NCBI RefSeq assembly: GCF_017352155.2
Contig: NZ_CP071462.1
Location: 3,100,001-3,164,000 of the forward strand
DNA from: Haloterrigena alkaliphila
GTDB lineage: Archaea; Halobacteriota; Halobacteria; Halobacteriales; Natrialbaceae
Length of the DNA stretch: 64,000 bases
Direction: 5' to 3'
This document shows, in pieces, positions 18,006-49,038 of the stretch (the first letter of the stretch is position 1; every line of letters begins with the position of its first letter). The notes beneath the pieces are model-generated. The model saw only the letters and a program-made list of their open reading frames with translations. It did no database searches and had not been told where the DNA came from. A program made the position numbers and the translations under genes.

Positions 18006-20873
<2,868 letters not shown>

Positions 20874-47248: not shown

Positions 47249-47953
47249 ATGTACGAGGCCGTCCACGCCCGTCCCGACGGAGAGAGCACGGTCGCCCGAC
47301 TGGCGGAGACGGCGGCCGACTACGGCTTCGAGGGCGTGGTCGTGCGCAACCACCACGACGCTCGAGCCGACTACGACGCCGCGGCGATCCGCGAGGAGTA
47401 CGGCATCGACGTCGTCGAGGGCCTCGAGATCCGCGCCGACGATCCGCAGGAGGCCAGCGGCTCCGTGGGCAACTACCGGACCACCGAGACGGTTCTGGGG
47501 GTCCACGGCGGCTCGAACGCGCTGAACCGGTTCGCCGTCGAGAACGAGAAAGTCGACGTGCTCGCCCACCCGATGGCCGACGGCGGCGACGTCAACCACG
47601 TGCTGGTGAAGGCCGCCGCCGAAAACGGCGTCCGCCTCGAGTTCACCCTCTCGGGAGTGCTCCGATCCAGCGGCGGCCGCCGGGTCAGGACCCTCCAGTC
47701 GCTGGGCAAACTCGAAGAGATCGTCACCTACTACGACGCGCCCTACGTGGTGAGCGCGGACCCGCGCTCGCACCTCGAGGTGCGTGCACCCCGGGAACTG
47801 AAAGCGCTGGGCGAGGAGATCGGCCTCTCGAGCGAGTTCGTCGAGGAGGGGCTGACGGAATGGGGCCGCCTCGCCGACCGAAACCGACGGATCGACTCCG
47901 AGTCGTTCATTGAGCCGGGGGTCCAACGGGGGAGGTATGAAGAAGAGCCTTGA
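47249..47953 (+). CDS. rnp3: Ribonuclease P protein component 3 (Rpp30)
   Basis: This 234-residue protein has the RNase P p30 TIM-barrel pattern: FEGVVVRNHHDARADYDAAA, GIDVVEGLEIRADDPQEASG, VDVLAHPMADGGDVNHVLVK, and VRLEFTLSGVLR. It binds the RNase P RNA with Rnp2 to process tRNA 5' ends. Its 3' end overlaps the methyltransferase start by 17 bp, and rnp2 follows, so the block is an operon. Confidence 0.92.
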   Translation: MYEAVHARPDGESTVARLAETAADYGFEGVVVRNHHDARADYDAAAIREEYGIDVVEGLEIRADDPQEASGSVGNYRTTETVLGVHGGSNALNRFAVENEKVDVLAHPMADGGDVNHVLVKAAAENGVRLEFTLSGVLRSSGGRRVRTLQSLGKLEEIVTYYDAPYVVSADPRSHLEVRAPRELKALGEEIGLSSEFVEEGLTEWGRLADRNRRIDSESFIEPGVQRGRYEEEP

Positions 47954-48680
47954 GGACCACGCCGCCCGATTCGACGAGAAGGCCGGCGAGTACGACGAGT
48001 CGAAGTCCGACGAGTACCGCGCCTGCGCGAGCCTCGTCGTCGAGCACGCCGCACCCGACGAGGACGACGTCGTCCTCGACCTCGGGACGGGCACCGGCGC
48101 CATCGCGCTCGCGCTCGCGTCCGACGCCGAGCGCGTCGTCGGCCGGGACATCAGCGAGGGGATGATGGACGAGGCGAGAGCGAAGGCCGAGGAGGTGGGA
48201 CTCACGAACAGCGCTGAATCGCAGAGCGATTCAGCTGGCTCACGGACTCACGAGTCCGTGAACCTCGAGTTCGGACGCGGTACGTTCCGGGAACCCGACT
48301 ACGACGGTCCCGTCGACGTCGTCACCTCGAACTTCGCGCTCCACCACCTCTCGGACGAAGAGAAGCGCGAAGCGATCGCGGTCATCGCCGACCTCGAGCC
48401 CCGGAAGTTCGTCCTCGGGGACGTGATGTTCTTCGGCGAGCCCGATCCCGACGATCCCTTCTACTCGCCCGAGGTCGACGACCCCGCGACGGTCGGCGTG
48501 CTCGCGGACGCGTTCACCGACGCGGGCTTCTCGCTGACCGCCGTCGAGCGCGTCCACGACCAGGTCGGGGTACTGGTCGCAGAGCGATCGTCGACCTCCG
48601 CGGCTGGCGGGATGGAGAGCGACGAGAAGGAGCCCGTAGCCGAGGAGGTCACCGACGACGACCCAGCGACGGACGCATAA
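47937..48680 (+). CDS. Class I SAM-dependent methyltransferase with a palindromic in-frame insertion
   Basis: This 247-residue methyltransferase has motif I VVLDLGTGTGAIALALA near residue 46, the acidic motif II VVGRDIS, and motif IV TSNFALHHL near residue 130. It lies between the two RNase P genes; methylation of RNA is a fair guess but not shown. A GGGGGAGGT Shine-Dalgarno-like run precedes ATG 47937 inside rnp3. Residues about 92-107 (SAESQSDSAGSRTHES) interrupt the strand after VGLTN and are encoded by two perfect hairpins. A Ser/Asp-rich tail ends the protein. Confidence 0.85.
   Translation: MKKSLEDHAARFDEKAGEYDESKSDEYRACASLVVEHAAPDEDDVVLDLGTGTGAIALALASDAERVVGRDISEGMMDEARAKAEEVGLTNSAESQSDSAGSRTHESVNLEFGRGTFREPDYDGPVDVVTSNFALHHLSDEEKREAIAVIADLEPRKFVLGDVMFFGEPDPDDPFYSPEVDDPATVGVLADAFTDAGFSLTAVERVHDQVGVLVAERSSTSAAGGMESDEKEPVAEEVTDDDPATDA
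48213..48261. repeat. Palindromic in-frame insertion inside the methyltransferase gene
   Basis: Two adjacent perfect hairpins lie in the coding sequence: GCTGAATCG-CAGAG-CGATTCAGC (48213-48235) and TCACGGACT-CACG-AGTCCGTGA (48240-48261), each with a 9-bp stem. They encode the Ser-rich stretch after VGLTN, where family members normally run straight on to the next strand. The two-hairpin layout parallels the aconitase insertion at 20229-20276. Confidence 0.7.
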
Positions 48681-48687
48681 CCCACCG

Positions 48688-49038
48688 ATGAAACACCTCC
48701 CGAAGCACCTCCAGCCGCGCTGGCGCTACCTCGCCGTTAGTCTCGAGACGCGGCCAGGCGCCGCGATCGACCGCCGGGCGTTCCAGCGCGAGTGCTGGTA
48801 CGCGGCCCAGAACCTGCTGGGCGATCCGGGTAGCGCCCGCGCCGATATGACCGTTGTCAGGTTCGCATTCGACGACGGGTCGGGTGACGCGATCGTTCGC
48901 GTTCGCCGGGGCGAGACGGACCCGGCTCGAGCGGCCCTCGCCTGCATCGACGAGATCGACGGCGACGCCGTCGGCCTCCGAGTCCGCGGGATCAGCGGGA
49001 CGATCCGGGCCGCCGACGAGAAGTTCGTCAGAAACTGA
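48688..49038 (+). CDS. rnp2: Ribonuclease P protein component 2 (Pop5)
   Basis: This 116-residue protein is the archaeal Pop5 homolog: MKHLPKHLQPRWRYLAVSLE at the start, FQRECWYAAQNLLG, and VGLRVRGISGTIRAADEKF. It pairs with Rnp3 on the RNase P RNA catalytic domain. It is 7 bp downstream of the methyltransferase gene in the same operon. Confidence 0.92.
   Translation: MKHLPKHLQPRWRYLAVSLETRPGAAIDRRAFQRECWYAAQNLLGDPGSARADMTVVRFAFDDGSGDAIVRVRRGETDPARAALACIDEIDGDAVGLRVRGISGTIRAADEKFVRN

Follow-up and report, generated by a model that had tools for sequence, protein, structure and literature searches.

To our knowledge, most known palindromic elements carried in frame within protein genes come from Rickettsia and Wolbachia. 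The Rickettsia palindromic elements (RPE) are described, in the available text of two papers, as in-frame palindromic repeats that lie in unrelated protein genes and are read through (PMC2229807, PMC10969869), and a third, also available in part, states that they lose their repeat identity over time (PMC6649704). For archaea, palindromic repeats fused into protein genes of Methanocaldococcus jannaschii (Suyama 2005) are cited in the accessible part of PMC2229807. In Haloquadratum walsbyi, the portion of PMC3119063 available to us describes PATEs and 52-bp terminal-only IS605 remnants, which are transposase-free and palindromic and are supposedly moved by IS605-type enzymes. In nematomorphs, mitochondrial genes contain perfect inverted repeats within their coding sequence; the two arms stay identical, and arm-to-arm correction of quasi-palindromes is discussed for these palindromes (PMC6649704, same excerpt). 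Finally, REP sequences are palindromes tagged at one end with GTAG or CGTC and are found mostly outside genes, according to the available part of PMC3733652.

Here we examine a 64,000-nucleotide stretch of Haloterrigena alkaliphila DNA (contig NZ_CP071462.1, positions 3,100,001 to 3,164,000; hereafter the window), in which a methyltransferase gene flanked by two RNase P subunit genes contains a pair of adjacent hairpins (Table 1). The preliminary description of this site placed two perfect 9-bp hairpins, 4 bp apart, in frame after VGLTN. Its coordinates and peptide were correct, as were the perfect pairing and the 4-bp spacing (TGGC), but the stems are 10 bp long rather than 9. The frame is kept through the insert and the encoded peptide reads VGLTN-SAESQSDSAGSRTHESV-NLEF. 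When the window gene was aligned with 80 orthologs picked by similarity, the 18-codon insert was found only in the window and in L009, a Natrialbaceae metagenome-assembled genome (MAG), and was missing from the other 79 of the 81 sequences, bearing out the earlier claim that the segment is extra to the usual methyltransferase. In the 79 insert-free proteins the end of a helix (GLE/GLT) leads directly into NLEF or a similar sequence, and the empty genes have a single AAC where the window has one AAC on the left and another on the right, the latter as GAAC. In a structure model (27 homologs used, mean pLDDT 77.7) the insert lies as a loop between helix 74-86 and strand 110-114, with residues 92-106 below a pLDDT of 50; the prediction is of a disordered loop on the protein surface. 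Judged from the sequence comparison, it is a late, frame-keeping insert. A ten-base direct repeat, GGACTCACGA, is also present at window:48198-48207 in the left flank and at 48244-48253 in hairpin 2.

Table 1. Positions in the window of the methyltransferase gene, its neighbours, the parts of its insert and the two aconitase inserts.
Feature	Position	Strand	Remarks
Host gene, class I SAM-dependent methyltransferase, 247 aa	47937..48680	+	Pfam Methyltransf_25 E 2.8e-15
RNase P subunit Rpp30/Rnp3 gene	47249-47953		flanks methyltransferase gene; RNase_P_p30 E 5e-39
RNase P subunit Pop5/Rpp14 gene	48688-49038		flanks methyltransferase gene on other side; RNase_P_Rpp14 E 4.7e-20
Family D double-hairpin insert, 54 nt, in frame (NSAESQSDSAGSRTHESV)	48207..48260	+	without counterpart in 79/81 orthologs; R2 match
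Hairpin 1, GCTGAATCGC-AGA-GCGATTCAGC	48213..48235	+	perfect 10-bp stem, 48213-48222/48226-48235, loop AGA
Linker TGGC	48236..48239	+	common to coding family D members
Hairpin 2, TCACGGACTC-AC-GAGTCCGTGA	48240..48261	+	perfect 10-bp stem, 48240-48249/48252-48261, loop AC
Left GAAC	48206..48209	+	possible 3-4-nt target duplication or conserved element end
Right GAAC	48260..48263	+	partner of left GAAC
Aconitase insert 1, 48 nt (VSASEASGGSSDESDV), double hairpin	20229..20276	-	two-hairpin P 0.007; folding energy P 0.040
Aconitase insert 2, 57 nt (EALRASEKTSGEQSDPRVM), hairpin 1 clear, second imperfect	18453..18509	-	two-hairpin P 0.147; folding energy P 0.010

Two stems of at least 9 bp lying within 15 bp of each other occur in the window at the methyltransferase site only, and the two-hairpin score of the insert was matched by none of 400 random coding segments from the same gene family. 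As controls, 17 other lineage-specific inserts, mostly linkers, were taken from the same genes, and none of them reached a two-hairpin P below 0.05. A search of 1.264 Mb of this 4.27-Mb genome (60 stretches plus the window) gave 20 tandem stem pairs of comparable strength, against 0, 0, 1, 2 and 1 in five dinucleotide shuffles (mean 0.8).

The architecture had also been likened to that of the aconitase sites, which holds for aconitase insert 1 and less well for insert 2 (Table 1). Both are missing from the other 29 of 30 aligned aconitase orthologs, among which four interior inserts of at least 6 aa are present: the two in the window gene, one at a third site in L280, which is a hairpin pair (two-hairpin P 0.015, folding energy P 0.040), and one in L298, which is not. 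A P-type ATPase of the same genome carries a 17-codon double hairpin that is common to the same-genus L224 and missing from 28 of 30 orthologs; between the two species its 51 nt differ at 2 positions, both outside the stems, in a gene that is 84% identical overall. Double hairpins joined by an invariant TGATGA were also seen at what appear to be intergenic positions (L120:17977-18024, L154:15185-15234 and L169:10920-10967); in these the outer stem bases are constant and the inner stems vary (CGAAA...TTTCG TGATGA CGAGAG...CTCTCG), and there are two further such sets (L168:16223/L152:487/L138:19770 and L119:7983/L164:8196).

A single repeated sequence was rejected as the source of the insert, the 91-base insert region being without a second copy in its own genome; the stems were therefore dropped and the linker pattern (AACAGCGC...GCTGGCT...GAAC) was used for searching, which finds the window type in other genomes. 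The members of this family, D, share the layout AACAGC, hairpin 1, TGGC, hairpin 2, AAC. Coding copies are found in the methyltransferase (window, L009/L218), in a gene that we take from its sequence to be DapD (L213, L342) and in Pus10 (L348), all in one reading frame, with the peptides NSAESQSDSAGSRTHESVN in the window, NSAEQRSAGSRTSSGN and GSAEQSSAGSRTSSGN in DapD and DSAEGTSAGSRPSAGN in Pus10. The stems of these copies are wholly different, yet 97% of the alignment cells are paired, with 25 cells showing two-sided changes against 7.9 in shuffles and a covariation score of 0.565 against 0.182. The DapD site is empty in the aligned L357-L361, which include the gene of the window's own genome (L360), and is occupied by unrelated linkers in L353-L356 and L362. 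A family D model, R2, matches the window insert with E 9.4e-9, the window copy itself being among its seeds, and has matches in 58 of 199 genomes; many of these are non-coding, some of them tandem, beside the end of a presumably enolase-like gene. At the 3' end of this gene (L112:19790-19841, L206, L214, L215, L219, L329-L333) the stop codon sits within hairpin 2 of the D element, an arrangement that is kept in several genera and is sometimes repeated in tandem about 50 bp apart. The plasmid search returned no match to D.

A second model, R1, was built from ten related copies and describes family E. Since R1 does not list the window insert, the idea that the three sites first noticed form one sequence family was rejected; D and E were kept apart, and neither was extended to aconitase site 1 or the ATPase insert. 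The ends of D and E are alike, with RACAGCG on the left and RAC on the right. R1 matches are present in 173 of 199 haloarchaeal genomes, at 1 to 16 in each and 10 in the window's own. Their context was read for 30 matches with loci and 40 further listed ones, of which one was unreadable and was left out (L303, with its locus off-centre). The remaining 69 are the best-scoring matches, and the frame and pairing figures given below thus describe strong copies. Of these, 67 lie inside a long acidic ORF, always in one frame, and the other two use the same frame at the C-terminus of an ORF. In L395 and L396 the element is at the extreme C-terminus of the ORF, in one case with a stop codon within the element, where it might form a new protein end. 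The E peptide is approximately DSEASETPRADGEAVD (consensus about D-S-E-A-S-E-T-P-R-A-D-G-E-A-V-D). As a typical E copy has five of its six frames open, stop codons alone do not force the single frame, and the filter is likely to be selection for acidic over arginine-rich peptides.

The 69 matches fall into 27 host-gene clusters, including CobN, glucose/sorbosone dehydrogenase and, as we read their sequences, topoisomerase I-like zinc-finger proteins and P-type ATPases. In the window's genome, copies are found in genes for CetZ, a Dna2-like helicase, a chlorite-dismutase-like protein and a pyridine-nucleotide oxidoreductase; an E-like double hairpin lies in frame at L125:9357-9406, in the CetZ tubulin-like gene. 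The weaker E matches in the 1.264-Mb sample of this genome probably include chance resemblances in coding sequence, for example L148:2879 and L170:4833. Annotated coding sequences read through E copies in Haloterrigena turkmenica, Halorientalis sp. IM1011 and Halosolutus gelatinilyticus, and in the Halorientalis biotin carboxylase the E peptide is an insertion relative to a solved acetyl-CoA carboxylase chain. Five haloarchaeal plasmid records carry E within annotated genes; on plasmid pHTUR04 of H. turkmenica DSM 5511 the gene is that of an FAD-dependent oxidoreductase. Exact pattern matches in viral contigs numbered zero, and carriage by viruses was accordingly rejected.

Pairing in E was assessed on an alignment, A3, of 59 distinct copies, ten of the 69 being left out as near-duplicates or same-gene copies. 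In these, 99.0% of the cells are paired, 134 cells show two-sided changes against 32 in shuffles, and a mean of 14.7 of 15 pairs are Watson-Crick against 8.8 expected for the same peptides written in random GC-rich codons, figures that are biased upward by the choice of copies with a structure model. The preliminary description had proposed a family of structure-defined elements that are inserted into genes and translated in frame. A one-frame family of this type is supported by D in three and E in 27 host-gene sets; the term 'structure-defined' applies in so far as two-sided stem changes greatly exceed those in shuffles, but linkers and ends are conserved too (AACAGC, TGGC and AAC in D; loops and ends in E). 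At the level of sequence, related elements with conserved ends, linkers and frame and with compensating stems recur in many unrelated genes. We consider it likely that the methyltransferase insert belongs to a haloarchaeal family of non-autonomous palindromic mobile elements of about 45-57 bp, each consisting of two adjacent hairpins and tolerated in frame.

The best-surviving alternative, which we nonetheless regard as improbable, is that the paired hairpins are a selected mRNA structure, acting in processing, pausing or translation control, that lies in coding sequence by chance. It would account for two-sided changes within a single gene, as in topoisomerase I, where 32 pair differences among nine copies at one place are two-sided and 16 one-sided, and for stems that are less variable than the neighbouring DNA, a comparison in which the flank differences are inflated because it was ungapped. 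In the CobN copies, the loops differ by 0.417 and the stems by 0.032. However, the 27 unrelated host-gene clusters share no gene position, the two-sided changes alter the amino acids of both arms, and a search of Rfam 15 gave no family at the gathering threshold, the best overlapping match being far below it. Moreover, the hairpins of the methyltransferase decay while the insert remains. Between the L009 and window inserts, 6 of the 54 nt differ: hairpin 1 has 3 changes in its arms and 2 in its loop, and the sixth is in loop 2. Hairpin 1 of L009 thereby has 2 of its 10 pairs broken, while the arms of hairpin 2 and the linkers are identical. The same methyltransferase carries inserts elsewhere, at one site in L019 and L033, at a second in L028 and L039 and at a third in L066. 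Their DNA shares the E motif, and with two-hairpin P values of 0.14 to 0.70 most of them have decayed; those of L019 and L033, which are older E inserts, no longer register as double hairpins. Orthologs that keep the insert without the hairpin, named at the outset as evidence against a structure-defined element, were thus found in part, and the losses in L009, L019 and L033 fit a decaying insert rather than a required structure. In the methyltransferase, then, the palindromes are decaying and the peptide stays. The stem pattern in topoisomerase I and CobN fits either arm-to-arm quasi-palindrome correction or selection on structure. In L322:1501-1547 (CobN) and L374:901-947 the first E loop is reversed (TCC for GGA) on unchanged stems, which suggests inversion of the loop inside the palindrome.

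We next consider whether the units move. The window and L009 methyltransferase genes are not sisters (AU p 0.00096), though their inserts share one site, so that either two insertions or one insertion and several precise losses are needed. Recent transfer between the two was rejected, as the flanks do not match and the inserts themselves differ. The window's genome has two paralogous genes (FAD-enzyme-like, as we read them) in which, at L119:13327-13388 and L168:9832-9893, an in-frame 54-nt double hairpin splits the second hairpin of an E copy. In L325, L326 and L328 the E copy at the corresponding place lacks the nested unit, which resembles the L280 aconitase insert. This nesting, in which one unit has inserted into another, is the strongest sign of whole-unit movement. 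Against mobility stand the shared site in the non-sister window and L009 genes, the lack of any recent strain-level jump among the copies compared, and target duplications that reach 3-4 nt at most and are inconsistent among sites. Hairpin 2 also shares GGACTCACG with the left flank (9 nt within the insert), which could hint at a local origin, whereby template switching during replication made each palindrome on the spot from its neighbours and nothing moves. Shuffled inserts share 6.4 nt on average, with 3 of 500 reaching 10, and template switching is discussed as an origin of coding palindromes in the available part of PMC6649704. We judge this explanation slightly less probable still than a selected mRNA structure. 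It would have to make two hairpins at once, with identical ends, linker and frame across unrelated genes, and to place a complete unit within another, and the L009 copy shares at most 6 nt with its flanks.

It is very unlikely that the segment escapes translation through removal from the RNA, for instance as a small archaeal intron. A stable structure within a gene would suit such removal, but every delimited insert is stop-free and a multiple of 3, and E is always in a single frame, with 67 of the 69 matches inside ORFs; removal would impose neither rule. Chance, by which GC-rich coding DNA would hold two palindromes and an ordinary loop insertion, we regard as excluded: single 9-bp stems are indeed about twice as frequent in this genome as in shuffles, but the 20 tandem pairs against a shuffle mean of 0.8, together with all of the family evidence, speak against it.

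Returning to the preferred reading, a family of mobile elements, copies would have spread in single-stranded, folded form, with the activity that moves them supplied in trans. IS200/IS605 enzymes work on folded single strands, and the most simply imagined mover would be an IS200/IS605-type (HUH, Y1) transposase or a relative, as a candidate. Insertions that keep the frame and code for a short acidic, Ser/Glu/Gly-rich disordered loop would be tolerated and presumably translated. Later, the palindromes would decay in some genes and stay perfect in others, with stems kept through quasi-palindrome (template-switch) correction or through selection on the nucleic acid. A more far-reaching version, which we put forward as a tentative possibility, is that haloarchaea host class-wide 45-57-bp double-hairpin elements specialised for coding sequence. 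These would enter genes as folded single strands where preferred protein loops are encoded, always in one acidic, disorder-coding frame, and could disappear from a site and later reoccupy it; their stems would long be kept perfect by arm-to-arm correction, with covarying amino-acid pairs written into dozens of core proteins.

The elements sit in core enzymes (CobN, topoisomerase I, biotin carboxylase, P-type ATPases, aconitase, CetZ), and these shorter, structure-conserved in-frame palindromes extend across an archaeal class that is easily grown and transformed. The system offers a direct test of mobile DNA adding loops to proteins without lethality, and of whether coding palindromes persist through selection or through copying errors. 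In practice, there is a risk that element peptides are mistaken for functional lineage-specific loops.

The literature searched, mostly outside subscription papers, yielded no account of double-hairpin elements lying in frame in haloarchaeal genes. The described systems differ from these elements to varying degrees. The ends of the window insert (AACAGC...GTG) are not inverted repeats, in contrast to the terminal inverted repeats of a MITE, which match a transposon and are accompanied by target duplication. Instead of the GTAG or CGTC tag of REP sequences, AACAGC and TGGC precede the window hairpins, and the family is largely intragenic. The nematomorph palindromes are much longer, mitochondrial and not a family of inserted sequences in one frame. 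PATEs and IS605 remnants, compared here by description, are likewise haloarchaeal, transposase-free and palindromic, and their shortest form is of similar length, but the available part of PMC3119063 describes no coding insertion family. PATEs, whose palindromes are related to the ends of IS605-type transposons, have neither terminal inverted repeats nor target duplication; in the elements examined here no terminal inverted repeats were seen, and a 3-4-nt duplication (GAAC) is possible at the window site and less clear at others. The M. jannaschii repeats (Suyama 2005), which enter this comparison through their citation in the accessible text of PMC2229807, resemble the elements as archaeal palindromes in protein genes.

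The closest likeness is to RPE and the protein-coding palindromes of Wolbachia, which are also palindromic repeats in frame in several unrelated genes (three for D, 27 clusters for E). With RPE they also share one preferred frame, seen here in all 69 readable E matches and in all coding copies of D. However, RPE are 105-146 bp long, with a long stem-loop and terminal inverted repeats, whereas the haloarchaeal elements are 45-57 bp and consist of two separate short hairpins with variable stems; and RPE lose their repeat identity, whereas many haloarchaeal E stems stay perfect. Length, two-hairpin build and breadth thus set the haloarchaeal family apart from RPE, as these are described, though the two are alike in working. 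We conclude that the haloarchaeal elements are not members of RPE but their counterpart, about half as long, built of two hairpins, conserved in structure and very widespread.
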